From NCBI RefSeq assembly GCF_014534685.1, contig NZ_JACVVX010000008.1:106540-170539 (forward strand): DNA of 64,000 bases, in the 5' to 3' direction. Position 1 is the first letter of the stretch. The number at the start of each line of letters is the position of its first letter. The notes below the pieces were generated by a model. The model did not search any database, had not been told where the DNA came from, and saw nothing but the letters and a program-made list of their open reading frames with translations. This DNA is from Oryzicola mucosus (GTDB lineage Bacteria; Pseudomonadota; Alphaproteobacteria; Rhizobiales; Rhizobiaceae). Both the position numbers and the translations under genes were made by a program. Positions 4,201 through 48,151 of the stretch are shown in pieces.

Positions 4201-4262
4201 TGCTTACACCCCTCTTTTTTTATGATTTTGGTTTCGGACTTGATTGGCCCGTCACAGTATTG

Positions 4263-4291
4263 GGACGGGCGGCAGTGTCTGCCGCCCGTCC
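4263..4291 (-). promoter_or_regulatory. Strong intercistronic hairpin between proX and proW
   Basis: A perfect 13-bp stem (GGACGGGCGGCAG / CTGCCGCCCGTCC) with a 3-nt loop sits just after the proX stop. No U-run follows on the minus strand, so I favour an mRNA-stabilising or partial-attenuation hairpin over a full terminator. Such elements often raise binding-protein mRNA above permease mRNA. Confidence 0.7.
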
Positions 4292-4297
4292 AGCTTG

Positions 4298-5299
4298 TCA
4301 GAGGCTAGCCTTGATCTTTTCAGCGGCTTCGGGAGACACCCACTTGGTCCAAAGGTCCTGATTCTCCTGCAGGAAATGCTTTGCGGCTGCTTCGCCCGTC
4401 GCCTGGTTGTCCGTCATCCACGCCATAAGCTTGTTGACCGTATCATTGCTCCATGAGCGCTTGTTCAGGTAATCCATGACTTCCGGGCCGGCGCGATCGG
4501 CGAATGATTTTGCGACCAGAGTGTAGACCGGATCCTTAGCCCACGCATTTTTCTTGGGATCGGGGCAGTCGGCCACCGTTATGCAGCGCTTCCATTCGGC
4601 GGCATCGACGGGAACGCCGGGGTCCAACTGCACCATTTCGTATTTTCCGAGCATAGCGGTCGGCGCCCAATAGTAGCCGAGCCAGCCCTGTTTGCGCTCG
4701 TAGGCCTTGGCCATCGAGCCGTCCAGACCTGCCGCGGAACCCGTATCCACAAGCGTGAAATTCGCTTTCTCGGCGTCGAAGGCCTTGTAGAGTTGAGCGG
4801 TTACGACCGTTCCGCCCCATCCCTGCGGACCATTGTAGATAGCGCCTTTGCTGGGATCTTCCGGGTCAGGAAAGAGCTCGGGATGCTTCAACGCATCTTC
4901 GATGGTCTTGATGTCAGGGTTTGCGTCTGCGAGGTACTTGGGGATCCACCATCCCTGCACGCCTCCGTCCGGCAGCGCCTGCGCGGCCTTGACGATGGTG
5001 CCTTCCTTCAGACCGCGCTCGACGACCTCAGGCTGCAGGTCGATCCATGCTTCCGGTGCAATGTCGGGCTGACCCTTTTCCGACATCGAGGTCAAGGTCG
5101 GTACCGTATCGCCGACCGTAATCTCGGCGCTGCAGCCATAACCTACATTGAGGATGTACTTGTCCAGGCTGGACAGCACTTCCGCGCTTTGCCAGTTCAT
5201 GCTTGCAATGGACACTTCACCACAATCGGCCGCCGACGCGGCGGATGCGAGACCGAAGCTGGCGAAGGCCAGGCAGGTTGCGAGTAAGATTCGTTTCAT
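4298..5299 (-). CDS. proX: Glycine betaine/proline betaine ABC transporter, periplasmic substrate-binding protein (ProX/OpuAC type)
   Basis: A 333-residue secreted protein with a signal peptide (MKRILLATCLAFASFG..., cleavage near residues 22-23). The mature part is an OpuAC-type binding domain rich in Trp and Tyr (PEAWIDLQ, GVQGWWIPKYL, GWLGYYWAPT), as needed for the aromatic cage that holds quaternary ammonium or dimethylsulfonium ligands. It delivers solute to ProW/ProV. It follows the ProC-like gene by 77 bases, so the unit probably reads tetR, proC, proX, proW, proV. Confidence 0.92.
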   Translation of the reverse strand: MKRILLATCLAFASFGLASAASAADCGEVSIASMNWQSAEVLSSLDKYILNVGYGCSAEITVGDTVPTLTSMSEKGQPDIAPEAWIDLQPEVVERGLKEGTIVKAAQALPDGGVQGWWIPKYLADANPDIKTIEDALKHPELFPDPEDPSKGAIYNGPQGWGGTVVTAQLYKAFDAEKANFTLVDTGSAAGLDGSMAKAYERKQGWLGYYWAPTAMLGKYEMVQLDPGVPVDAAEWKRCITVADCPDPKKNAWAKDPVYTLVAKSFADRAGPEVMDYLNKRSWSNDTVNKLMAWMTDNQATGEAAAKHFLQENQDLWTKWVSPEAAEKIKASL

Positions 5300-6201: not shown

Positions 6202-6842
6202 ACGAATTCCTCGGCACCTTGTTTAGCATTGAGCGTGAATTTGTGACGCGATGCAAATCTCTCCATTTCGCGGCGTTGCGGAGCCTGACCGGTATAGATT
6301 TCCACATAGGAGGGTATGCGCTTCATCCGCACTGCGAGGTCCTCCTTGGTGTTCATGGAAATATAGCCGATCTGGACAAGATAGATCGTCCGCGCACGGA
6401 CCTCGGCTGCCAGTTGCGGAAAGCCGAAACGCACGAACATTGCCGTCAGCGCGGAAATCCTTGCTTCGTCGGCTCCCTTTATTTCGGCGGCGACTGCAGG
6501 CGACTGGAGAGCCCAACTCCGCACTGCGAACTCGAACTGGGAGTCGAACAGGGATTGATCGAGCCAGCAGTCGAAAACGTTCAGCATGGCTTCGGCTATC
6601 GTTTCGGCGTAGGCGTCGCAGCGTTGCTGAATGCTCGCGGTATTCCGCGCCTTCCAACTCTGCAGAAGAGCGTCGAGAAGCGCTTCACGGTCGGCGAAAA
6701 ACCAATAAAAGCTCGTTCTCGACAGATTAAGCTTCTTGGCGAGGGGAAGTATGCGTACGGCATCGACCCCGGCATCGATGAAGGCGTCATAAGCGCTTTT
6801 CAGCCAGACGTCCTTTGAGCCGCGCCACACTGTCTCGTTCAA
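6198..6842 (-). CDS. TetR/AcrR family transcriptional regulator
   Basis: A protein of about 214 residues with an N-terminal TetR-type helix-turn-helix (AVRILPLAKKLNLSRTSFYWFFADREALLDALL) and a helical ligand domain. I prefer the TTG start at 6842 because a GGGAGG ribosome site stands 6 bases upstream; an ATG at 6905 in the same frame has no such site. It heads the minus-strand betaine unit and is divergent from the StcD-like gene, so it probably controls both from the shared intergenic region. The inducer is likely an imported betaine or its demethylation product (inference). Confidence 0.85.
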   Translation of the reverse strand: MNETVWRGSKDVWLKSAYDAFIDAGVDAVRILPLAKKLNLSRTSFYWFFADREALLDALLQSWKARNTASIQQRCDAYAETIAEAMLNVFDCWLDQSLFDSQFEFAVRSWALQSPAVAAEIKGADEARISALTAMFVRFGFPQLAAEVRARTIYLVQIGYISMNTKEDLAVRMKRIPSYVEIYTGQAPQRREMERFASRHKFTLNAKQGAEEFV

Positions 6843-34932: not shown

Positions 34933-35712
34933 ATGGCTGAGCGGGATAGTACGGAGCCATTGACTGCCGCTGTCGCCGCCATCGGAACGGCGGACTTCGC
35001 CGAGCGCTTCCTCGCTGTCTTGCGTGACATTGCCGGCACGGACCTGTGCTCGGCCTTCGAAATCGGACTGGACGGTGCCCCGCACTATGTGTTCGCGGTG
35101 GGCCGCCACCCCGAAATTCCCGACTTCGCCGAGAGTGCGTCGCTGGCTTATGCCCGCAACTACTGGCAGCGCGATCGCACAACCCAGCGCGCACTGGTTC
35201 AGTCGGCAGGCACGGTGCAACTCGTCCGGCAGGCCTGGAACGGCATTACCGATCCCGACTACCGACGCGCCTGCTATGAACGCGGCGGCATCGTCGAGCG
35301 CCTGACACTCTATGCCGGAGGCGCCCGACCGCTTTTCGCCAGCGCTTACCGGACACGCACCAGCGGCCATTCGAGTCCGAGCGAGGTCGAGGCGCTGGGA
35401 AAGGCAGCCGGCTTGATCATGGCGATGCTGGCCAAGCATCTGGAAATGAAGCACCGGCCGGTCGAGGCAGGAGGCATGCCGCTGCACGAACATGCCCGTC
35501 GCCTGCTCGACAGCGGCCATGCGCTGAGCGAGCGGGAGGCCGCCGTCGCAGCCGCGCTCTTTTTGGGAAGAACGCAGAGGGAAATCTCCGAAGCCACCGG
35601 CATCGCGCTCAGCAGCGTCATCACCTATCGGCGGCGCGCCTATCGCAAACTGTGCGTCAGCGACCGGCGTGGGCTGGCCGCGTTTTTCCACGCGCTCGAT
35701 CGACGGCACTGA
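34933..35712 (+). CDS. LuxR-type helix-turn-helix regulator
   Basis: A 259-residue protein with a C-terminal LuxR/GerE HTH (LSEREAAVAAALFLGRTQREISEATGIALSSVITYRRRAYRKL). The N-terminal ~190 residues do not show an autoinducer-binding signature that I recognise and may sense an aromatic ligand. It is divergent from the VOC protein and followed 19 bases later by an SDR gene, suggesting local control. Confidence 0.82.
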   Translation: MAERDSTEPLTAAVAAIGTADFAERFLAVLRDIAGTDLCSAFEIGLDGAPHYVFAVGRHPEIPDFAESASLAYARNYWQRDRTTQRALVQSAGTVQLVRQAWNGITDPDYRRACYERGGIVERLTLYAGGARPLFASAYRTRTSGHSSPSEVEALGKAAGLIMAMLAKHLEMKHRPVEAGGMPLHEHARRLLDSGHALSEREAAVAAALFLGRTQREISEATGIALSSVITYRRRAYRKLCVSDRRGLAAFFHALDRRH

Positions 35713-35731
35713 AACCGCAAAGGAAACGACA

Positions 35732-36457
35732 ATGGATCTCACGGGCAAGGTTGCGATCGTCACCGGCGCGAGTTCCGGCATTGGCTGGGAGATTGCCAAA
35801 GCTTATGCGGCGGTGAGTGCAAAAACGGTGCTGGCGGCACGCACGGCTGCAAGGCTGGACGAACTTGCGAGCGAGATAGAGCGCGCGGGCGGTTCGGCGC
35901 TCGCCGTCGCCTGCGATGTGACCGATGAAGAGCAGGTCGAAGCGCTTTTCGCTCGGTGCCGCGAGGGTTTCGGCGAACCCGACATCCTGGTGAACAATGC
36001 GGGCATTGCCGATCACACGCCGACCGTCGACATGACGCTGGCTCGCTGGGAAGAGGTGATGCGGATCAATATCACCTCGGTCTTTCTGTGCAGTCGCGCC
36101 GCCCTGAAAGCCATGATCCCGCGCCGCAAGGGACGGATCATCAATATCGGCAGCATCTCGGCGAAGGTGCCGCGCCCCCATACGGCCGGCTATACCGCCA
36201 GCAAATTCGCGCTGGAGGGGCTTACCCGCTCGCTGGCGCTGGACGGGCGAGAACACGGCATCGCAGTGTCGATGCTGCATCCGGGCTCGACCCAAAGCAT
36301 GCTGGTGCCGGGCGTCACCGACAAGCCGCGTCCGAACTCGATGAATCCGTCTGACGTTGCCCGCGTTGCTTTGGTGATGGCCACGTTGCCGGACGATGTG
36401 AACCTGTTCGAAACGACGATCCTGCCGGTCGCAATGCCTTTTCTCGGACGCGGTTGA
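35732..36457 (+). CDS. Short-chain dehydrogenase/reductase
   Basis: A 241-residue classical SDR: TGASSGIGWEIA cofactor loop, VNNAGIAD, a Ser region (INIGSISAKVPRP) and the catalytic Tyr-Lys in GYTASKFALEG. It interconverts an alcohol and a ketone or aldehyde with NAD(P)H. The ATG at 35732 begins the usual MDLTGKVAIVTG and has an AAAGGA site; an upstream in-frame ATG lies inside the LuxR gene. Possible role in side-chain oxidation of a lignin-type aromatic (inference). Confidence 0.88.
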   Translation: MDLTGKVAIVTGASSGIGWEIAKAYAAVSAKTVLAARTAARLDELASEIERAGGSALAVACDVTDEEQVEALFARCREGFGEPDILVNNAGIADHTPTVDMTLARWEEVMRINITSVFLCSRAALKAMIPRRKGRIINIGSISAKVPRPHTAGYTASKFALEGLTRSLALDGREHGIAVSMLHPGSTQSMLVPGVTDKPRPNSMNPSDVARVALVMATLPDDVNLFETTILPVAMPFLGRG

Positions 36458-36466
36458 CTCTTGTAT

Positions 36467-36502
36467 GTCAGGTTGACGGATATATGGGTACCTGATATCC
36501 AA
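36467..36502. promoter_or_regulatory. Palindromic operator, copy 5, with an overlapping weaker copy, before the ferulate operon
   Basis: GGATATATGG-GTA-CCTGATATCC (36480-36502) is a 10-3-10 palindrome with two mismatches, matching the island consensus. A partial copy, ATGTCAGG-TTG-ACGGATAT (36467-36485), overlaps it. TTGACT (36456) or TTGACG (36475) can serve as -35 elements, placing the palindrome over the promoter of the hydratase-lyase/CoA ligase operon. Confidence 0.65.
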
Positions 36503-36528
36503 ACCACGACTTTCACGGAGTTTTCCTC

Positions 36529-37392
36529 ATGCAGACCGCCGAAACCGCGTCCGTTGCACCGAAACCGAACGGGACATGGGGCGAGAACGTCACCGTCGAG
36601 TTCGAGGACGGCATCGCCTGGGTGACGTTGAACCGCCCGGCGCGGCGCAATGCGATCAACCCTGGCATTGTCTGGGAAATGAACGCGATCATGGACGCGC
36701 TGGAGGCCGACGACCGTTGCAAGGTGATGGTCGTGACCGGCGCTGGCGAATCCTTTTCCGCCGGCATGGATCTCAAGGAATACTTCAGGGCGACCGATTC
36801 GGTGCCGCCGATCGAGCGAGAACGGCTGTTTCGTGCCAACGCCGCATGGCAGTGGCGCCGTATGATGCAATTTCCCAAGCCGACCATCTCGATGGTCAAT
36901 GGCTGGTGCTTCGGCGGAGCGTTCCAGTTCTTGGTCGCTTCCGATCTCGCCGTCGCTTCCGAGGATGCGGTGTTCGGTCTGTCAGAGATCAATTGGGGCA
37001 TCATCCCGGCCGGTATCGTTACCAAGGCCGTGGTCGAGGTGATGAGCTTCCGCGATGCGATGTATTACATCATGACGGGCGAGACGTTCACCGGTCGCGA
37101 GGCGGCCGACATGAAGCTGATCAACAAGGCGGTGCCGGCTGCGGAGTTGAAGGACAAGACGCGGGATTTGGCCAGGACGCTGATGGGCAAGAACCCCTAT
37201 GTGCTTCGCCAGGCAAAAACAGCGGCTCGTTTCGTCAAGGACCTGACCTGGGAGCAGGCCGGCGACTATCTGATGGCAAAGTCCGACCAGACCGAATTCC
37301 GCGATCCCGAGAACGGCCGCAATACGGGCATGAAACAATTCCTCGACGACAAATCGTTCAAACCGGGACTGGAAACCTATGACCGTGGCTGA
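36529..37392 (+). CDS. p-Hydroxycinnamoyl-CoA hydratase/lyase (feruloyl-CoA hydratase-lyase), copy 1
   Basis: A 287-residue crotonase-family enzyme with strong likeness to HCHL (Ech/FerB). It shows EFEDGIAWVTLNRPARRNA, SAGMDLKEYF, NGWCFGGAF and GLSEINWGI. Family catalytic residues are visible: the Glu (E153, in LSEINWG) and the HCHL-specific Tyr (Y247, in GDYLMAKSDQ). It hydrates feruloyl-, caffeoyl- or p-coumaroyl-CoA and splits the product to the benzaldehyde (e.g. vanillin) plus acetyl-CoA. It is the first gene of the operon and overlaps the CoA ligase gene by 14 bases. Confidence 0.9.
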   Translation: MQTAETASVAPKPNGTWGENVTVEFEDGIAWVTLNRPARRNAINPGIVWEMNAIMDALEADDRCKVMVVTGAGESFSAGMDLKEYFRATDSVPPIERERLFRANAAWQWRRMMQFPKPTISMVNGWCFGGAFQFLVASDLAVASEDAVFGLSEINWGIIPAGIVTKAVVEVMSFRDAMYYIMTGETFTGREAADMKLINKAVPAAELKDKTRDLARTLMGKNPYVLRQAKTAARFVKDLTWEQAGDYLMAKSDQTEFRDPENGRNTGMKQFLDDKSFKPGLETYDRG

Positions 37393-39517
37393 AGCTGCGC
37401 TCTCGGCCGTACACCCCTCGACTCCAATCCTGGACCTCGACCGGCTGTTGAGGCCGCGCTCCATCGCCATTGTCGGCGCGCAGCCCGAGCCCACATCCAT
37501 CGGCGGCGGCGTTCTCGGCAATCTCGAGGCGTTTCATTATGCCGGTGAGATACATCTCGTCAGCCGCTCGCGCGATGAAATCCGCGGTCGTCCCTGCGTC
37601 AAGTCGATTGCCGAGTTGCCGCGCGATATCGACGTGGCGGTGCTGATCGTGCCGCAAGCCGCGATCCTCGACTCGGTTCGCGCCTGCGTCGAGCGCGGCA
37701 TCGGCGCGGTCGTCGTATTTGCGTCGGGCTTCGCCGAGGCGGGTGACGAAGGACGCCAGCAGCAGGACGAACTTGCCGAGTTGTGCCGCGATAGCGGCAT
37801 TGCGCTGCTCGGCCCTAACTGCATGGGCTACACCAATTATCCCGACGGGATTCCGCTCACCTTCGAGCCGGTTGATGTCCGCCCGCTTGCGGCTGCCGGA
37901 AAGAGGGTCGCCGTGGTGGCGCAGAGCGGTGCGACTGCTGCCAACATCCGCTTTGCCATGCACGCGCGGGGTATCGACGTCTCCTATGTGATCGCCACCG
38001 GCAACGAGGCGACCCTTGGCGCGGAACACTTCATCGACGTGCTGATCCACGATCCGCAGAACGCCGCGATTGGCTGTTATGTCGAGCAAATCCGCAATCC
38101 CGGGCTGTTTCTCGACGCAGCCCGCCGCGCTCGCGCCAAGGGCATTCCAATCGTCCTTCTGCATCCCGGTTCCAGCGCGCGAGGACGCGCCGCCGCGCAG
38201 TCTCACACCGGCGCGCTTGCCGGTGATCACGCGGTAATGGAGACCATTCTGCGCAACGAGGCCATCGCGCTTGTCGAGACGACGGACGAGTTGTTCGATG
38301 TGTTGGCGATCCTGTCGCGCTTTCCGACACCCGTACCGGGCAAAGCCGGTGTTGTGACCAATTCCGGTGCGATTCGCGGCCTATGCTTCGATTTCTGCGA
38401 GCGGATCGGTCTCGACCTTGCGACCCTTTCCCCCGAGATCGAGGCGGAGATGCAGGCGCTGGTGCCGCCCTATGTGCATGTCGACAATCCGTTCGACATC
38501 GGGACGGTCGGCTTCGCCAATCCGGCCATCTACGGTACCTCGGTGGCGGTGCTGCTCAAACAAGCGGATATCGGCATGGCGCTTCTGTCTTATGCCGGCG
38601 GTTCGCCCAAAATGCAGATCGCAAAGTCGGACGCGATCATTCCGGTCTATGCGGCAGCGACGAAGCCCGTCATTCTCAACATCGTCGGCGACGACTATCC
38701 GCTGGACGAGAAATTCATGGCCGACGTGCGCGCCAGCGGCATCCCGTTCTTCCGCTCGCCCGAGCGGGCGCTTCGGGCAATGGCGGCAATCTCAGCCTAT
38801 GCCGATGCGCTGGCTGCCACAGGCGAGCCGAAACCGCTCCTTTCGGTCGAGGCTATCGTGCCCGGTTCCGGCGTCATTCCCGAATATGCGGGCAAGCGCG
38901 TGCTGGCCGATCTCGGCATCGCCGTGCCGCGCGGCGAGATGGCGAGGAGTGTCGAAGACGCCGTCGGCGCAGCGGCGCGGATCGGCTATCCCGTCGTCAT
39001 CAAGGCACAGGCGGCGGCACTTGCCCATAAGAGCGATGTCGGTGGCGTCATCATCAACATCGCAGACGAAAAAGCACTACGCTCCGCATGGGACCGGCTT
39101 CACGCCGGTGTATCGGCGGCCAAGCCCGGCCTTGCGCTGGACGGAGTGCTGATCGAAGAAATGGCGCAGCCCGGCCTCGAAATGGTCGTCGGCGCCCGGC
39201 GCGACCCGCAATGGGGGCCTGTGGTTTTGGTAGGCCTTGGCGGCGTCTGGATCGAGGCGATCAGGGACGCGCGGCTCCTGCCTGCGGCAACGACCCGCGA
39301 GCGCGTAATCGCAGAACTCGGCAAGCTCAAGGCGGCATCGCTTTTGGGGCCGTTCCGGGGGCAACCCGCACGCGATGTCGGCGCCATCGCTGATGTCGTC
39401 GTGAAGCTCGGCCAGCTGATGCTGTCGGACCCGTCGATCTCGGAAGTCGACATCAATCCGCTGATGGTCGGGGCAGAGGGCGCGGTGGCGTTGGATGCGC
39501 TGTTCGTAAAGGACTGA
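37379..39517 (+). CDS. ADP-forming acyl-CoA synthetase, probable feruloyl-CoA synthetase (FerA-like)
   Basis: A 712-residue protein of the nucleoside-diphosphate-forming acyl-CoA synthetase superfamily. In order: CoA-binding Rossmann domain (RPRSIAIVGA, GVLGNLE), succinyl-CoA ligase-like domain with the phospho-His region (AAQSHTGALAGDHAV), and a C-terminal ATP-grasp domain (VVIKAQAAALAHKSDVGGV, DINPLMVG). Family knowledge: FerA of Sphingobium SYK-6 is of this type and activates ferulate. Lying between a hydroxycinnamoyl-CoA hydratase-lyase and a vanillin-type dehydrogenase makes the hydroxycinnamate role likely. Confidence 0.87.
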   Translation: MTVAEAALSAVHPSTPILDLDRLLRPRSIAIVGAQPEPTSIGGGVLGNLEAFHYAGEIHLVSRSRDEIRGRPCVKSIAELPRDIDVAVLIVPQAAILDSVRACVERGIGAVVVFASGFAEAGDEGRQQQDELAELCRDSGIALLGPNCMGYTNYPDGIPLTFEPVDVRPLAAAGKRVAVVAQSGATAANIRFAMHARGIDVSYVIATGNEATLGAEHFIDVLIHDPQNAAIGCYVEQIRNPGLFLDAARRARAKGIPIVLLHPGSSARGRAAAQSHTGALAGDHAVMETILRNEAIALVETTDELFDVLAILSRFPTPVPGKAGVVTNSGAIRGLCFDFCERIGLDLATLSPEIEAEMQALVPPYVHVDNPFDIGTVGFANPAIYGTSVAVLLKQADIGMALLSYAGGSPKMQIAKSDAIIPVYAAATKPVILNIVGDDYPLDEKFMADVRASGIPFFRSPERALRAMAAISAYADALAATGEPKPLLSVEAIVPGSGVIPEYAGKRVLADLGIAVPRGEMARSVEDAVGAAARIGYPVVIKAQAAALAHKSDVGGVIINIADEKALRSAWDRLHAGVSAAKPGLALDGVLIEEMAQPGLEMVVGARRDPQWGPVVLVGLGGVWIEAIRDARLLPAATTRERVIAELGKLKAASLLGPFRGQPARDVGAIADVVVKLGQLMLSDPSISEVDINPLMVGAEGAVALDALFVKD

Positions 39518-39547
39518 CGCGGCGCGCTGCGCAGTAGGGGAGGGACC

Positions 39548-40993
39548 ATGACCGAAGACCCGCGCTATGGAACACTTCGGCTGTTCATCGATGGGCATTG
39601 GCTCGACGCGGGCACCCGCGTCACCGAGGATGTCATCAACCCGGCGTCCGGCGAAGCCATCGCCGCCCTGCCGCACGCCAGCCGCGACGATATCGATGCG
39701 GCGGCGCGGGCAGCGGATAGAACCTTCAAGCCATGGAAAGCTCTTCCCGCTTACGACCGAGCCAAAATCATCCGCAAGGCGGCCGACCTCCTGCGCGAGC
39801 GGGTCGAACCCATCGCCCGGCTGGTGGTTCTGGAACAGGGCAAGCCCATCTTGGAGGCGCGGCAGGAGGTGTTGGCCGCCGCGGACATCTTCGACTGGAC
39901 GGCCGATGAAGGCAGACGCACCTACGGCCGCATCGTGCCGTCGCGCATGCCGGGCGCGCGCTGGCTGGTGACGAAAGAGCCGGTCGGCCCGGTCGCGGCC
40001 TTCACGCCGTGGAACATTCCGATCGTCATCCCCGCGCGCAAAATCTCGGCTGCACTCGCCGTCGGCTGTACCATGGTCATCAAGCCTTCGGAGGAGACGC
40101 CTGCCTCGGTGCTGGAGCTCGCCCGCGCCCTGGATGACGCCGGCCTGCCCAAAGGCGTGCTCAATGTCGTATACGGTGTTCCGGCCGAGGTGTCCGAACA
40201 TCTGATCGCGCATCCGGCGATCCGCAAGATCACCTTCACCGGCTCCATAAGCGTCGGACAGGAACTGGCGAAGCTCGCGGCCCAGGCGGGAGTCAAGCGC
40301 GCGACGATGGAGCTCGGCGGCCACGCGCCGGTTCTGGTGTTCGAAGATGCCGATCTCGACCACGCGGTGCGGTCGATGGTCGCCGCCAAATATCGCAATG
40401 CCGGCCAGGTCTGTGTCTCGCCTACACGGTTTTATATCCACGAAAGCCTGCATGACAGGTTCGTCGAAGGCTTCGCCAGCGCCGCGAAGGCGATCAAGCT
40501 GGGCGACGGGCTCGACGCCGCCACCGGCATGGGGCCTCTCGCCAACCCGCGTCGAACCGCGGCTATGGAGCGTCTCGTTGTAGACGCCGTCGATCGTGGA
40601 GCGAAGCTGGTGACTGGCGGGGAGCGAAGCGGCAACCGCGGGTATTTCTTCCAGCCAACGGTGCTTGCCAACGTGCCGACAGAAGCTCGTGCGATGAACG
40701 AGGAACCCTTTGGCCCGATGGCGATCACCTCGTCTTTCTCGTCGTTCGACGAAGCCATAGAGCAGGCCAACCGGCTGCCCTTCGGCCTGGCCTCCTACGC
40801 CTTCACCACATCGGGCAAGACCGCTGGGATGGTTGCGGACGCGTTGGAGGCGGGCATGGTCGGCCTCAACAACAATTTCATCAACATGCCCGAAACGCCG
40901 TTCGGCGGGGTGAAGCAAAGCGGCTACGGCAGCGAAGGCGGTACCGAGGGCATGGACGCCTACCTCACCACCAAATTCGTCAGCCAGACGTGA
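39548..40993 (+). CDS. Aldehyde dehydrogenase, probable vanillin/hydroxybenzaldehyde dehydrogenase
   Basis: A 481-residue NAD(P)-dependent aldehyde dehydrogenase. It shows FTPWNIPIVIPARK, catalytic Glu in MELGGHAP and Cys in AGQVCVSPTRF. It follows the FerA-like ligase by 30 bases with GGGGAGGG before the ATG and precedes a second hydratase-lyase, so it should oxidise the vanillin or 4-hydroxybenzaldehyde they release. It closely resembles the aldehyde dehydrogenase at 17.4 kb, which implies duplication within the island. Confidence 0.9.
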   Translation: MTEDPRYGTLRLFIDGHWLDAGTRVTEDVINPASGEAIAALPHASRDDIDAAARAADRTFKPWKALPAYDRAKIIRKAADLLRERVEPIARLVVLEQGKPILEARQEVLAAADIFDWTADEGRRTYGRIVPSRMPGARWLVTKEPVGPVAAFTPWNIPIVIPARKISAALAVGCTMVIKPSEETPASVLELARALDDAGLPKGVLNVVYGVPAEVSEHLIAHPAIRKITFTGSISVGQELAKLAAQAGVKRATMELGGHAPVLVFEDADLDHAVRSMVAAKYRNAGQVCVSPTRFYIHESLHDRFVEGFASAAKAIKLGDGLDAATGMGPLANPRRTAAMERLVVDAVDRGAKLVTGGERSGNRGYFFQPTVLANVPTEARAMNEEPFGPMAITSSFSSFDEAIEQANRLPFGLASYAFTTSGKTAGMVADALEAGMVGLNNNFINMPETPFGGVKQSGYGSEGGTEGMDAYLTTKFVSQT

Positions 40994-41003
40994 GGATACC
41001 GAC

Positions 41004-41864
41004 ATGACATCCGATATGACCCATAAGGACAGCCGGCCCGAACCCTGGGGCAAGGACGTGCTCGTCGAATTCGAGGACGGCATTGCCTGGGTCAAGCTCA
41101 ATCGCCCGGAAAAGCGCAACGCGATGAGCGTCGGCCTCGCCGAGGAGATGAACAAGGTTCTGGACGCGCTGGAGATCGACGAGCGCTGCGGCGTCATCGT
41201 CCTGACCGGCATGGGCGAGGCCTTCTCCGCCGGCATGGACCTCAAGGACTTCTTCCGCGCCACCGATGGCGTGAGCGATATCGAGCGCATGCGCGCCTAT
41301 CGTTCGACCCGCGCCTGGCAGTGGCGCACGCTGATGCACTATTCCAAGCCGACCATCGCCATGGTCAATGGCTGGTGCTTCGGCGGCGCCTTCACGCCGC
41401 TGATATGCTGCGATCTCGCTATCGCCTCGGAAGACGCGGTGTTCGGCCTGTCGGAGATCAACTGGGGCGTGATACCGGGGGGCGTTGTCTCCAAGGCGAT
41501 CTCGACCCTGATGAACGACCGCAAGGCGCTCTACTATGTGATGACCGGGGAACAGTTCGGCGGCAAGATCGCCGAGCAGCTGGGCCTGGTCAACGAGGCG
41601 GTTCCGGCCGACCGGTTGAGAGAGCGTACGGTCGAGTTGTGCAAGGTGCTGCTGGCTAAGAACCCGACCGTGCTGCGCCAGGCGCGGATGGCCTATAAAT
41701 ATGTGCGCGAGATGAGCTGGGAAGAATCGGCGGAATATCTGACGGCCAAGGCCGATCAGACCACATTCGTCGATCCCGAGCGCGGCCGCGCCAAGGGCCT
41801 GTCGCAATTTCTCGACGAGAAGACCTTCCAGCCGGGTCATGGGACGTACAAGCGCGAGGGCTGA
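41004..41864 (+). CDS. p-Hydroxycinnamoyl-CoA hydratase/lyase, copy 2
   Basis: A 286-residue HCHL with VEFEDGIAWVKLNRPEKRNAM, SAGMDLKDFF, NGWCFGGAF and GLSEINWGV. Catalytic Glu (E151) and the HCHL-type Tyr (Y245 in AEYLTAKADQ) are present. Copy 1 and copy 2 are close paralogues differing mainly at the N-terminus and in the segment after the first oxyanion loop, so they may split ferulate-type and coumarate/caffeate-type substrates. It ends the operon, 10 bases after the aldehyde dehydrogenase. Confidence 0.9.
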   Translation: MTSDMTHKDSRPEPWGKDVLVEFEDGIAWVKLNRPEKRNAMSVGLAEEMNKVLDALEIDERCGVIVLTGMGEAFSAGMDLKDFFRATDGVSDIERMRAYRSTRAWQWRTLMHYSKPTIAMVNGWCFGGAFTPLICCDLAIASEDAVFGLSEINWGVIPGGVVSKAISTLMNDRKALYYVMTGEQFGGKIAEQLGLVNEAVPADRLRERTVELCKVLLAKNPTVLRQARMAYKYVREMSWEESAEYLTAKADQTTFVDPERGRAKGLSQFLDEKTFQPGHGTYKREG

Positions 41865-41954
41865 CAGGTCGCACCGGACAACGCCATTGGATCGTCGCGC
41901 GTTGCGTATGCGATGTCGCTTTCATGACCTTGTTTTAACCGCGCCTGTGGTGTC

Positions 41955-42145
41955 ATCCCGGTGTTCAAGGTGCTCGTCGGCACGGTGCCGGAGAGATAAT
42001 TGGGAAGCCGGTTTGATGCCGGCGCTGCCCCCGCAACGGTGGCGGAGTTGACGTTTCGACGGGAGACCACTGGGCCAAAAGCCTGGGAAGGTGTCGAAAC
42101 GGTCCGAAGGGACGGCTCCGGAGCCCGGAAACCAGCCTTGACGTG
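41955..42145 (+). promoter_or_regulatory. Cobalamin (B12) riboswitch
   Basis: The sequence carries the class-I cobalamin aptamer landmarks in order: a GGTG-rich 5' helix, AGATAATTGGGAAGCCGGT, GCCGGCGCTGCCCCCGCAACGGT (read as two halves), ACCACTGG, CCTGGGAAGG, and the B12 box GAGCCCGGAAACCAGCC at 42121-42137. When cobalamin binds, such elements normally switch off expression. It lies in the 411-bp gap before gbcA, on the same strand, with no other gene between; bases 41865-41954 show nothing recognisable. B12 control of betaine demethylation genes is unexpected. Confidence 0.92.
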
Positions 42146-42250
42146 TTGATGAACTCGACTGATCGCGGTGGGCGGTCAAGAGATGGAACGTTCAGGGCGG
42201 TCGGCGACCGCTGCCCCGACGCCCTTCCTTCTCAAATCGCCACCGGTTCA

Positions 42251-42270
42251 GTCCTTGGCTTTGTAAGGAC
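42251..42270 (+). promoter_or_regulatory. Hairpin overlapping the gbcA ribosome-binding site
   Basis: GTCCTT (42251-42256) pairs with AAGGAC (42265-42270) across an 8-nt loop; the right arm is the Shine-Dalgarno of gbcA, whose ATG is at 42276. It could be the translational switch of the cobalamin riboswitch. Confidence 0.5.
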
Positions 42271-42275
42271 AGGAC

Positions 42276-43523
42276 ATGGACGTCCGCAACGAAATGCTGA
42301 GCCTCATTCGCGGTCGCCGCGAAGGGTTCAGCCTGCCGCAGCCATTCTATCTCGATGAGGCGTTCCACAAGCTGGACATGGAACTGATCTGGTATCGGGA
42401 CTGGCTCTTTGCCGGCCACGATTGCGAAATCGCCAAGCCGGGCAGCTTCTTCACCATCCAGGTCGGCGATTATCCTGTCGTGGTTGTGCGCGGTCGTGAC
42501 GGCGTCATTCGCGCGTTCCACAATTCGTGCCGGCACCGCGGCAGCAGGGTCTGCAACACCGAGAGGGGAACATCAGCGCGTCTGGTCTGTCCGTATCATC
42601 AATGGACCTATGATCTCGACGGCTCGCTGGTGTTTGCCCGACAGATGGCCGACAGTTTCGACAAGGCCGACTTCAGCCTGAAACCGGTGGCCTGCGAGAG
42701 CGTCGCCGGCTATATCTTCATCTGCGTTGCCGAGCGTCCCGCTGATTTCGCGCCGTTTCGTACGCTGATGGAGCCCTATTTCGCGCCCCACAATCTGACG
42801 GGCGCAAAGGTCGCCTACGAAAGCACCATCATCGAAAAGGGCAATTGGAAGCTGGTCTGGGAAAACAACCGCGAGTGCTATCATTGCGCCGCCAATCATC
42901 CGGAACTCTGCAAGACATTTCCCGAAGCTCCCAACGTCACGGGCGTCAACGGCGCAGATAGCGACCCCGAAATGCAGGCGCATTGGGCGAAGTGCGAGGC
43001 GGTCGGGCTGCCGTCGCGCTTCCGCATCGACGGGGAGGGCCAGTATCGCGCCACGCGCGCGCCTCTGCTGCGCGATGCGGTCAGCTACACGACGACCGGC
43101 AAGCGCGCCGTCCGCAAGAATCTGTCTGAGAAGGTTGCCGCGGATCGCATCGGCGCGCTGATGCTGTATCACTATCCGACCACCTGGAACCATGTGCTCG
43201 TCGACCATGCGGTGACGTTCCGCGTGCTGCCGATCAGCGCGACCGAAACGGCGGTTACCACCAAATGGCTGGTCCATGGGGATGCGGTCGAAGGCGTCGA
43301 CTACGATCTCAAGGACCTCATCCACGTCTGGACGGAAACCAACGACGAGGACCGGCGCATCGTCGAGGAGAATGCGTTCGGCATCAAGTCTCCCGCCTAT
43401 GAGCCGGGTCCATATTCCGAGTTGCATGAAGGCGGCGTCATCCAGTTTGTCGACTGGTACACGCGCTTCATGGAAACGCGCCTGGTCGAAGGCGAAAAAC
43501 CTGCCTTGCGCAACGTCGCCTGA
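42276..43523 (+). CDS. gbcA: Glycine betaine demethylase/monooxygenase, Rieske oxygenase subunit (GbcA)
   Basis: A 415-residue Rieske non-haem iron oxygenase. The Rieske ligands are C85, H87, C105 and H108 (CRHRGSRVCN ... CPYHQW). The mononuclear iron site includes H203 and H208 (NNRECYHCAANH). The C-terminal TTKWLVHGDAVEGVDYD and YEPGPYSELHE closely match GbcA of Pseudomonas, and the FSLPQPFY start does too. The enzyme removes one methyl group of glycine betaine, giving dimethylglycine and formaldehyde, with electrons from GbcB. Length and motifs do not fit vanillate O-demethylase VanA (about 350 residues). It is preceded by a cobalamin riboswitch. Confidence 0.9.
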   Translation: MDVRNEMLSLIRGRREGFSLPQPFYLDEAFHKLDMELIWYRDWLFAGHDCEIAKPGSFFTIQVGDYPVVVVRGRDGVIRAFHNSCRHRGSRVCNTERGTSARLVCPYHQWTYDLDGSLVFARQMADSFDKADFSLKPVACESVAGYIFICVAERPADFAPFRTLMEPYFAPHNLTGAKVAYESTIIEKGNWKLVWENNRECYHCAANHPELCKTFPEAPNVTGVNGADSDPEMQAHWAKCEAVGLPSRFRIDGEGQYRATRAPLLRDAVSYTTTGKRAVRKNLSEKVAADRIGALMLYHYPTTWNHVLVDHAVTFRVLPISATETAVTTKWLVHGDAVEGVDYDLKDLIHVWTETNDEDRRIVEENAFGIKSPAYEPGPYSELHEGGVIQFVDWYTRFMETRLVEGEKPALRNVA

Positions 43524-43532
43524 GGCCCGGAC

Positions 43533-44639
43533 ATGAACGCTGTCACAGAAACCAATCTCTATCGTCATCTCGACGAGATGGCGCCCTGGAACGATCGTTT
43601 GCAGGTGCTGGAGGTGATCGGCATCACCGAGGAGGCACCGGAGGTGAAAACCTTCACCTTCCGCTCGGATGCTCAGACCTGGTTTCGCTACAAGCCCGGC
43701 CAGTTCATCACGCTGGAACTGCCTATAGAGGGTGGGCCGGTGATGCGGACCTACACTTTGTCGTCGAGCCCGTCTCGGCCGTTCTCCATCGCCGTGACGG
43801 TGAAGGCCCAGGCCGACAGCATTGGAACGCGCTGGATGTTCAACCATTTCAAGCCCGGTTCAACGGTCAAGGCTTTCGGGCCTGGAGGCACTTTCAGCCA
43901 TCATGAGCACCCAGCCGGGAAATACCTTTTCATATCGGCGGGATCGGGCGTGACTCCGATGATGTCAATGCTGCGTTGGCTGAACGACTGCGCGCCATGG
44001 ACGGACGTCTCCTTCGTCAACTGCGCCCGCAGGCCCGAAGAAATAATCTTCCGCAAGGAACTCGAACTTCTCGGCACCCGCATGCCCGGGCTGTCGCTGG
44101 CCTTTGTGATCGAGGAACGCTCGGCCTCGCGCGAAAGCTGGTTTGGACATATGGGCCGCATCGATGCGGTACGGTTGCCACTGCTCTCTCCCGATTTCCA
44201 GGAGCGTGAAGTCTTTTGCTGCGGACCCGACCCTTTCATGCGCGCGGTGCGCGGCATGCTCGAAGCAGCAGGCTTCGACATGGGGCGTTATCACCAAGAG
44301 AGCTTTGGCGCGCCGCCTGTCGAACCAATACAGCTGTCGGTCGGCGAGGAGATACTGAACCTGGCTTCAGCCGAAACCGGTCAGCCGATCCGGTTTGCCC
44401 AATCCGATGTCGATGCCGAATGCCTCGCCGGCCAGACCATCCTTCAGGCGGCACGCGCCAGCGGGGTCCGTATTCCCGCTGCCTGCGAGTTCGGCCTGTG
44501 CGGCACCTGCCGGGTTATGAAGATTTCGGGCGATGTCGAGATGGAGCACAATGGCGGCATCCTCGACGATCAGATCGCCGAAGGCTACATCCTGGCATGC
44601 TGCTCGAAACCGCTTACAGCGGTTGAGATCGAGGCCTGA
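43533..44639 (+). CDS. gbcB: Glycine betaine demethylase reductase subunit (GbcB)
   Basis: A 368-residue flavin/iron-sulfur reductase. The N-terminal FAD-binding domain shows MRTYTLSSSPSRP; the NAD domain shows ISAGSGVTPMMSML and CCGPDPFM. The C-terminal 2Fe-2S domain has CEFGLCGTC and a later Cys in LACCSKPL. This FAD-NAD-ferredoxin order is that of GbcB and hybrid-cluster-protein reductases. It passes electrons from NADH to the Rieske centre of GbcA. It lies 9 bases after gbcA and ends the riboswitch-controlled transcript, since the next gene is on the other strand. Confidence 0.88.
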   Translation: MNAVTETNLYRHLDEMAPWNDRLQVLEVIGITEEAPEVKTFTFRSDAQTWFRYKPGQFITLELPIEGGPVMRTYTLSSSPSRPFSIAVTVKAQADSIGTRWMFNHFKPGSTVKAFGPGGTFSHHEHPAGKYLFISAGSGVTPMMSMLRWLNDCAPWTDVSFVNCARRPEEIIFRKELELLGTRMPGLSLAFVIEERSASRESWFGHMGRIDAVRLPLLSPDFQEREVFCCGPDPFMRAVRGMLEAAGFDMGRYHQESFGAPPVEPIQLSVGEEILNLASAETGQPIRFAQSDVDAECLAGQTILQAARASGVRIPAACEFGLCGTCRVMKISGDVEMEHNGGILDDQIAEGYILACCSKPLTAVEIEA

Positions 44640-44714: not shown

Positions 44715-45455
44715 TTACCCTGCCGTATCGCCATTGTCCGGCTTGATTCTCGACGTCTCATCCAAGGCAGACCGTCGGGAGATGGTTTTGGGTGGACGCG
44801 CTTTATAGACCGGCAGCCTCCAGCCGAACTGCAGCGATCCGGCGCGGAGCAGGAAGGTTACGCCTGAAGCGCTCATCAGCGAAAGCGTCTCATGGGCAGG
44901 AAGCAGGTGAAGCAACAAGACGCTGGTGAGTGCGCCGGCGAGGCAAGCGCTGACATAAAGATCGCCCTGGCGGAGAACCAGCGGGATTTCGTTGGCAACC
45001 ACGTCCCGCATCAATCCACCGAATGTGCCGGTCGCTACGCCCATGATCAGCACAATAGGCCAGGACGCACCGGAATCGCGGGCGATGCCGACACCCGCAG
45101 CGACCGCGACCGGGAGCGCCAAGGCATCGAGCCAGAGGATCGCGTTGTAGCGTGATTCAAGACGGTGCGCGGTGAAGAAGGTCAACATCGCCGCGGCGCA
45201 GGCGACACCCATATAATGCGGACTTGCGACCCAGAACACCGGGGCGCGGCCCAGCAAAAGGTCGCGCAGCGTTCCGCCGCCCACGCCTGTGAGGCATCCG
45301 AGAAACAGAAACCCGACGATGTCAAGCTGCGCGCGAGACGCCACGATACCGCCGGTCAGTGCAAAGACGAAGACCGCGATCAGGTCGAGGACGGCGTCAA
45401 GCGGCATGGCTTTCTCCCATCTGGCGGGCGGCGCCTGAAACAATCCGGCAATCAC
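44715..45455 (-). CDS. TRIC/UPF0126 family membrane protein
   Basis: A 246-residue inner-membrane protein with two repeats of three transmembrane helices: FVFALTGGIVASRAQLDIVGF with GGTLRDLLLG in the first, then TGTFGGLMRDVVANEIPLVL in the second. The Gly-Gly-x-x-R-D signature in both repeats marks the trimeric intracellular cation channel-like (YadS/YicG) family; some members carry glycine. Given gbcAB next door, whose pathway ends in glycine, a glycine role is possible but unproven. The C-terminal ~40 residues are hydrophilic. Confidence 0.85.
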   Translation of the reverse strand: MIAGLFQAPPARWEKAMPLDAVLDLIAVFVFALTGGIVASRAQLDIVGFLFLGCLTGVGGGTLRDLLLGRAPVFWVASPHYMGVACAAAMLTFFTAHRLESRYNAILWLDALALPVAVAAGVGIARDSGASWPIVLIMGVATGTFGGLMRDVVANEIPLVLRQGDLYVSACLAGALTSVLLLHLLPAHETLSLMSASGVTFLLRAGSLQFGWRLPVYKARPPKTISRRSALDETSRIKPDNGDTAG

Positions 45456-45667
45456 ATATCATTCTTGGCACAGGACAAACCACCAAGGAATTTCCGACAC
45501 GATCTCACCATTGGGGCGCGCAAGGGGGCAGTGCAGCCGTCTACACCATTGAATTTGCGTCCGTTTCTCCACTCTAACGGAGAAAAGAATCTTTCTGTCC
45601 GATTGGGCGGAACCATGCCGGGGCAATGGCGTTTGCAAAAGTATCCCCAAACCTCAGGAGTTTCCAT

Positions 45668-48151
45668 ATGGCCAACCCACACCGTACATTTGGCCAATGG
45701 GCTACGATTGCCTTGGCCGTGGTGATGGGGCTTTTCGGGCTTCCGATCATGCTGGGCGGTGTATGGCTGATCACCTTGGGCGGCTCCTGGTACTATGCCT
45801 TCGCCGGCCTGGGCCTGCTGGTCTCGGCCTATTTCCTGTTTCGCCAATCCATGGCTGGTGTTTCGGTCTATCTGCTCACCTTCATAGCCACTGTGGCCTG
45901 GGCGCTATGGGAATCGGGCCTCGATGGCTGGGCCCAGGTGCCTCGCCTTGTGGCGCCCACTGTCATTCTGGTGCTGGTCCTGGCTACAATTCCGGTGTTG
46001 GGCGGACGTTTCAGCGCTCACCGTGGCGCTTTCGCAGCCTCCGCAGCCGCAATCATAGCAATCGGCGCCGCGCTGATTGCTTTGACATCCGGCAGCGAGG
46101 GCACGGCCGTTGCGCAGGAGGTGTCGCCACCGCCAGCAACCCAGGCTCCCGCATCGCAAGCGCCAGATGCCGCAACCTCCGCGCCGCAGACTTCAGCGAC
46201 ATCGTCCCCCGCGGCCTATGCGACTTTGGAAACAGGCGCTGACTGGCCGGCTTATGGCGGAACGCACCGTGCCACGCGTTATTCGCCGCTTGATCAAATA
46301 ACAGCTGAAAATGTCGGCAAGCTGGAGAAAATCTGGGAGTTCCGCACAGGCGATCTTCCGAAGGATGGAGAGCCTTTCGGCAATCAGAACACGCCCGTCA
46401 AGGTCGGCAATCGGCTCTATTTGTGCTCGGCCCTGAACAAGATCAGCGCCTTGGATGCGGCGACGGGAGCGGAATTCTGGACCTACGATCCGAAAACGCC
46501 GGCCGACGCAATCGGCTACAATGCGTCCTGTCGCGGGGTGGTCTATTTCGAGGACACAACCGCCGAAGCCGGTTCGCTCTGCGCCGCCCGCATCGTCAAT
46601 CTGACCCACGATGCGCGGATGATTGCCCTCGACACCGAGACGGGCCAGCTGTGCCCTAACTTCGGCAATGGCGGCATCGTCAATCTGCTCGAAGGCATTG
46701 GAGATACTGCCCCTGGTTTCTATGCGCCGACCTCACCGCCGACGCTCGTGCGTGACGTGCTGGTAGTCGGCAGCCAGGTCAGCGACGGCCAGACCCGTGA
46801 AGCTCCCTCGGGCGTTATTCGCGGTTTCAATGCGGTGACCGGTGAGCTTGATTGGGCCTGGGACATGGGCCGTCCTGATGAGAAAGGCTTGCCGCCGCAA
46901 GGCGAGGTCTACACGCCGGGCACGCCCAATGTCTGGACGATTGCTTCCGGCGACGACGAACTCGGCCTGGTCTATCTGCCCATGGGCAATTCGGCCGTTG
47001 ATTATTGGGGCGGCGACCGCTCCGACGCGGAGAACACTTATTCGACAGCCATCGTAGCGCTGGACGTAGAAACAGGCGACGTCGCCTGGCATTACCAGAC
47101 GGTGCATTACGACGTGTGGGACTATGACCTTGGCGGTCAGGGGACCCTGGTGGACTTTCCAACCGAAAATGGTCCGGTACCCGCCATCGTCATGCCTTCC
47201 AAGCAGGCCCAGTTCTACATTCTCAACCGGGCGACCGGTGAGCCCCTTGTCACCATAGAGGAGCGTCCGGCGCCTCAGGGCGGCGTGGAGCCCGAGCGCT
47301 TGTCGCCGACCCAACCCTATGTAACGGATTTTCCCAATCTGCTGAAACCGGACCTGACCGAAGCAGACATGTGGGGCGCAACGCCGCTCGACCAGTTGTG
47401 GTGCCGCATCCAGTTTCGTCAGGCGAGCTACGCGGGTGTCTATACGCCGCCCACCGTCGATCAGCCATGGATTCAGTTTCCCGGCTACAATGGCGGATCG
47501 GATTGGGGCGGTGTCGCCATCGATCCCATAAAGGGCATCATGATTGCCAACTACAACAACATGCCGAATTTCAACCAGCTGGTGCCGCGCGAGACCATCG
47601 ATGAACTTGGTATCCTGCCGATCACCGATCCGAACTACGATCCGGACGCCGGCGGCGGCTCGCATGGCAGCATCAGCCCGCAAGCGTTGTCGCCTTACGG
47701 CATTCGTGTGAATGCCGGATGGCGGGTTCCGCTTACCGGTTTGCTGTGCAAGCAGCCGCCTTATGGAGGCATTGCGGCCATCGATTTGAACACACGAGAA
47801 GTTTTGTGGGATCGTCCTTTCGGGACTGCGCGCAAGAACGGGCCGTTTGGCATCCCTTCCATGTTGCCGATCGAGATCGGTACGCCGAACAATGGCGGCG
47901 GATTCATCACGGCCTCAGGTTTGTTCTTCATCGCGGCCGCGACAGACGACCTCTTGCGTGCAATCGATATCAAGACCGGCAAAGAAGTGTGGCAGGTTGC
48001 GCTACCGGCTGGCGGTCAGGCGACACCGATGACCTATGAGGCCGGCGGACGGCAGATCGTCGTCATCAATGCTGGCGGACACGACTTCATGGAGACGGCC
48101 ATCGGCGATTACTTCATCGCCTATGCCTTGCCGAAGAGCGAAGCGCCCTAG
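45668..48151 (+). CDS. Membrane-bound PQQ-dependent dehydrogenase, glucose/quinate/shikimate family
   Basis: About 827 residues. The N-terminal ~150 residues hold five hydrophobic segments, followed by an Ala/Pro/Gln-rich linker and a periplasmic eight-bladed propeller. Hallmarks are DWPAYGGTHRATRYSPLDQI at the propeller start, RGVVYFED, HYQTVHYDVWDYDLGGQG, DWGGVAIDP and GGGSHGSISPQALSPYG. It oxidises glucose or quinate/shikimate in the periplasm and feeds ubiquinone. The ATG at 45668 has AGGAG at proper distance; the longer frame from 45626 lacks this. The adjacent oxidase cluster may be the electron sink. Confidence 0.88.
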   Translation: MANPHRTFGQWATIALAVVMGLFGLPIMLGGVWLITLGGSWYYAFAGLGLLVSAYFLFRQSMAGVSVYLLTFIATVAWALWESGLDGWAQVPRLVAPTVILVLVLATIPVLGGRFSAHRGAFAASAAAIIAIGAALIALTSGSEGTAVAQEVSPPPATQAPASQAPDAATSAPQTSATSSPAAYATLETGADWPAYGGTHRATRYSPLDQITAENVGKLEKIWEFRTGDLPKDGEPFGNQNTPVKVGNRLYLCSALNKISALDAATGAEFWTYDPKTPADAIGYNASCRGVVYFEDTTAEAGSLCAARIVNLTHDARMIALDTETGQLCPNFGNGGIVNLLEGIGDTAPGFYAPTSPPTLVRDVLVVGSQVSDGQTREAPSGVIRGFNAVTGELDWAWDMGRPDEKGLPPQGEVYTPGTPNVWTIASGDDELGLVYLPMGNSAVDYWGGDRSDAENTYSTAIVALDVETGDVAWHYQTVHYDVWDYDLGGQGTLVDFPTENGPVPAIVMPSKQAQFYILNRATGEPLVTIEERPAPQGGVEPERLSPTQPYVTDFPNLLKPDLTEADMWGATPLDQLWCRIQFRQASYAGVYTPPTVDQPWIQFPGYNGGSDWGGVAIDPIKGIMIANYNNMPNFNQLVPRETIDELGILPITDPNYDPDAGGGSHGSISPQALSPYGIRVNAGWRVPLTGLLCKQPPYGGIAAIDLNTREVLWDRPFGTARKNGPFGIPSMLPIEIGTPNNGGGFITASGLFFIAAATDDLLRAIDIKTGKEVWQVALPAGGQATPMTYEAGGRQIVVINAGGHDFMETAIGDYFIAYALPKSEAP

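Follow-up and report, generated by a model that had tools for sequence, protein, structure and literature searches.

Why should genes of the glycine betaine demethylase type stand behind a vitamin B12 riboswitch? The question is raised by a 64,000-nucleotide stretch of Oryzicola mucosus DNA (assembly GCF_014534685.1, contig NZ_JACVVX010000008.1, positions 106,540 to 170,539; here called the window and numbered from its first letter), in which a cobalamin riboswitch aptamer precedes a gbcA-like Rieske oxygenase gene and a gbcB-like reductase gene. Riboswitches of this kind follow a rule described in PMC2211319, whereby a B12-independent isozyme lies behind a B12 riboswitch where the B12-dependent isozyme is also present; a pair of the metE/metH type has been tested in P. 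megaterium (PMC9600662). We propose, at a probability of roughly three in four, that gbcAB is likewise the B12-independent backup of an MtgBCD-type enzyme set and is predicted to be repressed by the B12 riboswitch when B12 is plentiful.

The cobalamin leader of gbcAB and its distribution

A cmscan search matched RF00174 at 41951-42154 on the forward strand (104.9 bits, E 3.3e-25, model positions 1-189 of 189; gathering score 31.5), the sole Rfam match above its gathering score in the whole 64 kb. The leader contains the core motifs CCACTG and GGGAAGG together with the B12 box GGAAACCAGCC, and by sequence and structure the segment is a full-length class-I cobalamin riboswitch aptamer. This agrees with a preliminary description of the same DNA, which had noted the landmarks of a class-I B12 aptamer and placed the B12 box at 42121-42137; we see the box GGAGCCCGGAAACCAGCC at 42120-42137, and the Rfam score is not a poor one. 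The 3′ end of the aptamer lies 121 nt from the gbcA start codon. The same description took gbcAB to be the only genes on the transcript. This stands for the downstream side, where gbcAB alone share the leader's strand up to the next neighbour with a Pfam match (44715-45455, opposite strand), but upstream genes may read in. Same-strand genes occupy 35669-41864, the last one stops 86 nt short of the aptamer, and neither a sigma-70-type promoter nor an intrinsic terminator was matched in 41860-42300; transcription may therefore read through into the leader.

Four cobalamin aptamers are present in this genome. The other three precede ordinary B12 genes, at DUF1636/CobW, CbiX-like and CbtB/CbtA/CobU loci, as named by eye from their open reading frame (ORF) sequences. 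The genome also encodes a second gbcA-like oxygenase (contig C22; locus L114, 8574-9845, reverse strand), 41.6% identical and located beside a LysR-type regulator as read from the ORFs; no RF00174 match was found near this copy.

The spread of the leader was surveyed in three sets that overlap in species, so that their counts are not to be summed as independent. A search of 397 genomes of the order with the window protein (E<=1e-120) returned 49 genomes with 52 loci. In this survey of the Rhizobiales, which the preliminary description had proposed, a co-stranded RF00174 match lay just 5′ of gbcA in 25 of the 49 genomes (26 of 52 loci). RF00174 matches anywhere in the genome (E<=0.001) were present in all 49, in 48 of them above the cut-off. 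B12 riboswitches are thus general in gbcA genomes of the order, and the variable point is their presence at gbcA.

In the second, named set, 49 of 80 gbcA loci carry the leader; these belong to Alphaproteobacteria and one gammaproteobacterial metagenome-assembled genome (MAG). The leader lies 96-146 nt from gbcA in 46 loci and about 220 nt away in three. Leader-bearing loci include Mesorhizobium, Aminobacter, Shinella, Sinorhizobium, Labrys, Roseibium, Sulfitobacter and Phaeobacter; among loci titled Rhizobium, 11 of 17 have the leader and six have none; and within the named set it was not found at any of the five Agrobacterium loci or at the Brucella, Ochrobactrum and Pseudochrobactrum loci. 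One locus of this set, L227 (JAHREI010000004.1), titled Bacillus subtilis, has a rhizobial-type gbcA (65%), probably reflects a mislabelled or contaminated assembly, and was dropped from the co-occurrence counts below. Locus L098 was left out of alignment A1. At locus L011, two cobalamin riboswitches stand back to back, 813-1017 (-) and 1174-1375 (+); one serves gbcA and the other points away.

For the named set and the third set, made up of further genomes from the window's family, leaders were called with an in-house nhmmer profile built from 26 aptamers. An Rfam recheck of leader-bearing family loci confirmed 10 of 10, and four further ones weakly. Across all 39 leaderless family loci and all 30 leaderless named loci that entered the co-occurrence counts, Rfam matched RF00174 only at L235, a Hyphomicrobiales MAG. 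There the riboswitch (3605-3745, +, 95.4 bits) lies 1.26 kb 5′ of the gbcA-like gene and precedes an ORF that reads as a cobalt/nickel transporter (3833-4906) and ends just before that gene. At this locus, which we counted as leaderless, gbcA looks as if it had been recruited into a B12-riboswitch operon.

Co-occurrence with a probable B12-dependent counterpart

Mausz et al. (2025, PMC12478193) report that Ruegeria pomeroyi cannot demethylate betaine without MtgD and MtgC, the latter predicted to bind cobalamin, and they assign PF06253 proteins as MtgB; the same article describes an MtgBCDE set in S. meliloti. The window's genome has this gene set as well: a stretch of about 15 kb encodes MtgB (PF06253, 785.6 bits), MtgC (PF02310 and PF02607), MtgD (PF00809), MtgE (PF02574), a RACo activase and a DUF1638 protein. 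By Pfam, the proposed B12-dependent counterpart is therefore encoded in the same genome as the riboswitch-linked gbcAB. The surroundings of MtgB, including adjacency of MtgC, were examined in this genome and in eight other riboswitch-bearing ones, and an Mtg cluster lies at the MtgB site in five of the eight.

Across genomes, the leader and genes of PF06253, the MttB family, occur together. PF06253 is encoded in 25 of 25 order-set genomes with the leader vs 8 of 24 without, in 20 of 20 vs 10 of 30 in the named set (50 of 80 tested, leaving out L227 and 29 of the 49 riboswitch-bearing loci), and in 73 of 77 vs 7 of 37 in the family set (297 genomes searched; 114 of 115 used, leaving out G677, whose gbcA match has two stops). 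A strict two-way rule was true in the first 16 genomes (9/9 vs 0/7) and failed in the larger samples. A leader implies PF06253, with four exceptions whose leaders are degraded; the converse fails.

At some loci the two systems are neighbours. Two Roseibium species, R. aquae (L247) and R. hamelinense (L253), have mtgC-DUF1638-mtgD divergent to gbcAB, with about 300 nt between the leader and the start of mtgC. In a gammaproteobacterial MAG without a leader, L243, an mtgB-like gene lies about 150 nt 3′ of the gbcA-like gene. Inside this mtgB-like gene, the Rfam model for the mttB pyrrolysine insertion element matched marginally (6240-6336, +, 39.9 bits; cut-off 38), probably on account of coding sequence that the genes have in common and not of pyrrolysine use. 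Between -8 and +10 kb relative to gbcA, we read a dgcA-like gene in the cluster sequences of 10 leaderless loci and no leader locus, and metH in those of six leader loci and no leaderless one. The metH genes near riboswitch-gbcAB are those of L123, L125 and L134-L137 (genomes G061, G265, G050, G087, G198 and G121).

Shared ancestry could produce such an association if the leader had been gained once with the gene cluster and then carried along. Both leader and PF06253 are clustered on the tree, and the raw Fisher values for their association (2e-7, 2e-13 and 2e-18 in three successively larger samples; 1e-19 in the family set minus six genomes with a sole Stc2-like copy, Stc2 being the stachydrine demethylase of S. 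meliloti) are inflated by relatedness. For this reason we preferred a test on independent pairs differing in PF06253, counted on a FastTree tree of 160 of 218 loci (58 near-identical ones collapsed). On average, in 14 such pairs the leader tracked PF06253 in 8.3, opposed it in 0.0 and was unchanged in 5.7, with a median sign-test p of 0.008 in this largest sample, the only one in which the corrected test is significant. Furthermore, genus g2 holds genomes with both leader and PF06253 (G396) or with neither (G023, G187, G281 and G385), and in the single genus that has a leader but no PF06253 the aptamer has degenerated. We consider it very improbable that the association is a by-product of ancestry.

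The four genomes with a leader and no PF06253 are all from that one genus, and their aptamers score 56-61 bits in Rfam. The motifs CCACTG and GG(G/A)AAGG and the B12 box are present in none of these four leaders, compared with 71/73, 71/73 and 70/73 of the family leaders accompanied by PF06253. Such leaders would look like the product of lost constraint after loss of the B12-dependent enzyme, in a single lineage and thus at most one event.

The same genus bears on the reading that the preliminary description had put first, in which GbcAB is turned on at low B12 and the glycine and one-carbon units released from betaine feed corrin synthesis. Betaine feeding does raise industrial B12 yield (PMC8123684), and cobK, a gene of de novo B12 synthesis, is present in the window's genome. 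The degraded-leader genus, however, keeps cobK in four of four genomes. Among 80 hand-picked genomes (31 with both leader and PF06253, 45 with neither and the four of this genus), cobK/cbiJ (PF02571) was found in 27 of 31 vs 35 of 45 (Fisher p 0.38). As cobK is about equally common with and without the leader, which tracks PF06253 instead, we disfavour corrin supply and regard it as quite improbable. The alternative offered in the preliminary description, that GbcAB is the B12-independent counterpart of corrinoid methyltransferases, gains support from the co-occurrence, the MtgBCDE set of the genome, the Roseibium adjacency and the degraded aptamers without a partner.

Several observations weigh against this backup role. 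PF06253 is a broad family with members for other amines, as paper titles indicate, and in three of the eight riboswitch-bearing genomes the fetched stretch around MtgB held no further Mtg genes. PF06253 without a leader is not rare (8/24, 10/30 and 7/37), which means that having the partner does not entail having the riboswitch. Among the eight such order-set genomes, G217 and G264 have Stc2-like copies and G188, G365, G237, G286 and G341 have a dgcA-like gene close by, leaving G274 without such an explanation. Five of the seven family misfits hold only an Stc2-like copy (64-82% to Stc2), G541 and G608 being unexplained, and the ten leaderless named cases, L235 among them, are without explanation. 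In the two smaller samples the pair test fell short of significance, with a median p of 0.25 for 52 loci and of 0.0625 for 102. Finally, the degraded leaders keep three of six tested motifs, are still above the Rfam cut-off and may still function. Taking both sides together, we lean towards the view that B12 supply picks the chemistry of betaine demethylation in many Alphaproteobacteria, with a corrinoid route to tetrahydrofolate and methionine in the presence of B12 and a riboswitch-released oxygenase yielding formaldehyde in its absence, the aptamer having decayed in a lineage that lacks the B12 route.

Substrate, mode of control and genomic context

The best NCBIfam models for the two window proteins are GbcA (NF058607, 506.6 bits) and GbcB (373 bits), each under its equivalog cut-off (670 and 500). 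The plain label GbcA was accordingly dropped for the oxygenase. Its shortfall counts against glycine betaine as the substrate; the cut-off was also missed by 10 of 10 relatives in one scan and five of six in another, a Halomonas protein (835.5) being the sole relative scanned above it. The window protein is, moreover, 57.7% identical to Stc2 vs 48.3% to this Halomonas GbcA, which likewise tells against betaine and gives weight to a different reading: the riboswitch-linked Rieske enzyme would use another quaternary amine (proline betaine, carnitine-like or mixed), with another MttB-family enzyme as its partner under the same regulatory logic. Near-equal scores against PDB entries (3n0q 534.5 vs Stc2 527), the 12 PF06253 genes of the riboswitch-bearing genome G044, and six riboswitch-bearing copies closer to Stc2 than to the window protein (G044, G254, G377, G355, G390 and G186) are in line with it. 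Close Stc2 relatives (76-92%), by contrast, are leaderless even with PF06253 in the genome, and G651 and G688 have the leader on another gbcA copy, not on the Stc2-like one.

In a 72-row tree, Stc2 pairs with the G217 and G264 proteins (100*), and the window protein falls elsewhere, with many riboswitch-bearing orthologues and two proteins from betaine-catabolic clusters. The S. meliloti Stc2 gene, which adjoins stc3 and stc4, is in a different clade from the window protein. The two betaine-cluster proteins are a Paracoccus versutus pTAV3 relative (72.9%), with a GlxA regulator, a flavin adenine dinucleotide oxidoreductase, FolD, EtfAB, FdhA and a BCCT transporter as neighbours, and an A. tumefaciens pAt1D1609a relative (60.8%), next to FdhA and a glycine betaine ABC transporter. 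Because the window protein groups with them, glycine betaine is its likely substrate, and we regard the use of another amine as unlikely. No characterised protein stood among the best 120 homologues (8000 candidates scored, from a set of 5.8 billion proteins).

GbcAB as B12-independent backup would thus work as follows. When B12 is plentiful, the leader is predicted to shut off gbcAB, since the same genome encodes a probable B12-using counterpart. The MtgBCD-type set would probably perform the same demethylation using B12, both systems acting on glycine betaine, and the methyl group would pass to tetrahydrofolate or homocysteine. When B12 is low, gbcAB would be switched on, as the behaviour of the riboswitch family suggests, and the methyl group would be oxidised with O2 to formaldehyde. 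Repression by B12 is inferred here because B12 riboswitches 5′ of B12-independent isozymes repress.

Binding of B12 would act probably at translation, through a P13-like hairpin directly 3′ of the aptamer and the ribosome site (Table 1). Of 149 distinct leaders, 131 have the P13-like hairpin (at least 4 pairs, GGNGG loop). Its stem shows compensatory variants, for example GGTTGC/GCAGCC and GATCAC/GTGATC, and a stem of at least 5 pairs occurs in 59 of 76 leaders vs 1.3% of mononucleotide shuffles. A ribosome-site hairpin with a comparable 6 pairs was found in no more than 29 of the 131 leaders, compared with 8.2% of shuffles, and folding energies are unremarkable (z -1.63 for 41951-42300; z -1.49 for 42236-42290). 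Two detailed schemes were not adopted. An anti-sequestor formed by the P13 loop GGTGG and a CCACC further downstream would suit 66 of the 88 leaders that have this loop, but GGCGG leaders match CCGCC in just 6 of 39, and we do not put it forward as a general scheme; terminator control was set aside, as no terminator was matched in 41860-42300. For the latter reason, control at translation is the simpler guess. No one platform model fits the leaders in general for a route from the P13 hairpin to the ribosome site, some 100 nt apart, which counts against the proposed mechanism. This distance, about 100 nt from hairpin to start codon, together with a hairpin directly 5′ of the ribosome site in two other B12 leaders of the genome (by reading), could suggest that the riboswitch activates gbcAB when B12 is present. 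The oxygenase would then be made just when the B12 route works, and B12 riboswitches at B12-independent isozymes repress (PMC9600662, PMC2211319); we find activation scarcely credible.

Table 1. Coordinates of the leader elements and of gbcAB in the window.
Feature	Position	Strand	Basis
Cobalamin riboswitch aptamer (RF00174, class I)	41951..42154	+	cmscan
B12 box GGAGCCCGGAAACCAGCC	42120..42137	+	sequence
P13-like hairpin GATCGC-GGTGG-GCGGTC, directly 3′ of aptamer	42161..42177	+	stem kept across leaders
Predicted hairpin GUCCUUG...UAAGGAC enclosing Shine-Dalgarno-like AAGGA (weak evidence)	42251..42270	+	fold of 42236-42290
gbcA-like Rieske oxygenase, 415 aa	42276..43523	+	PF00355 and PF00848
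gbcB-like reductase, 368 aa	43533..44639	+	PF00970, PF00175 and PF00111

Several neighbouring genes were also assigned. The upstream block at 35669-41864 (+) encodes a short-chain dehydrogenase/reductase (by reading), two p-hydroxycinnamoyl-CoA hydratase/lyases (411 and 408 bits; cut-off 276), a protein of the ADP-forming acyl-CoA ligase type and an aldehyde dehydrogenase, likely a hydroxycinnamate (ferulate-type) pathway with a duplicated lyase. Directly 3′ of gbcB, 44715-45455 (-) encodes a PF03458 protein, whose Pfam name, Gly_transporter, may not reflect its function. Further on, 45626-48151 (+) encodes a membrane-bound pyrroloquinoline quinone-dependent dehydrogenase of the glucose/quinate type (927.9 bits, above the NCBIfam cut-off).

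Known systems and implications

Pseudomonas gbc genes are under the regulator GbdR. The window pair resembles the GbcAB of Pseudomonas and Chromohalobacter in combining an oxygenase with a reductase whose best NCBIfam models are GbcA and GbcB, and differs in falling under both equivalog cut-offs and in having a B12 leader. With genomes that have metE behind a riboswitch together with metH, it shares a B12-independent enzyme behind a B12 riboswitch and a B12-dependent one in the same genome, and, as in that type of pair, we see a recurrent arrangement whose presence in a genome depends on that of the counterpart. Unlike metE/metH, it concerns osmolyte breakdown and spans two enzyme classes, an O2-dependent Rieske oxygenase on one side and a set of corrinoid methyltransferase type on the other, which would give the methyl groups differing fates. 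The study of MtgBCDE in R. pomeroyi and S. meliloti treats GbcAB as a separate, rarer route, and in its main text the sole occurrence of "riboswitch" is a reference title on a glycine riboswitch (PMC12478193).

For S. meliloti 1021, a cobalamin riboswitch 5′ of smc00982 was taken over from Rfam by an article of 2007 (PMC2245857) and appears in a list of 2008 (PMC2573895), with no function given in the passages concerned, and the gene was later described as "likely encoding a dioxygenase" (PMC2848018). In strain 1021, smc00982 belongs to a divergent pair whose 637-base intergenic region (954440-955076), as given in those sources, equals in length and orientation that of S. meliloti Ak57 locus L285, where the leader lies at 3684-3886 and gbcA at 4001-5245. 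From this layout, smc00982 is likely the orthologue of the L285 gbcA. The L285 record (CP090106.1; 3.7 Mb) is titled S. meliloti pSymB, and the locus matches the chromosomal smc00983/smc00982 layout. A length of 3.7 Mb presumably fits the S. meliloti chromosome better than pSymB.

Among the best-ranked matches in the openly readable literature, we found no link of a B12 riboswitch to gbcAB and none of gbcAB as a partner of MtgBCD; the words "betaine", "Rieske" and "dioxygenase" are absent from the main text of PMC3766115, a statement that excludes its supplementary regulon tables. Neither the class of riboswitch nor the isozyme rule is new; what we add is the pair of target genes and the dependence of this arrangement on its counterpart from genome to genome.

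Plants and sea water contain betaine as an abundant osmolyte, and B12 is a scarce vitamin that organisms share. If our proposal is true, B12 status would select the route of demethylation, coupling the carbon of an osmolyte to the supply of B12, and the flow of osmolytes and one-carbon units would contain a junction set by a vitamin. The metE/metH rule would then hold in catabolism too, and a B12-riboswitch target of a model symbiont, left without a function in the passages cited above, would gain one. A second betaine route has been noted in S. meliloti (Barra et al. 2006, according to PMC12478193), and the riboswitch-gbcAB pair may be relevant to it.

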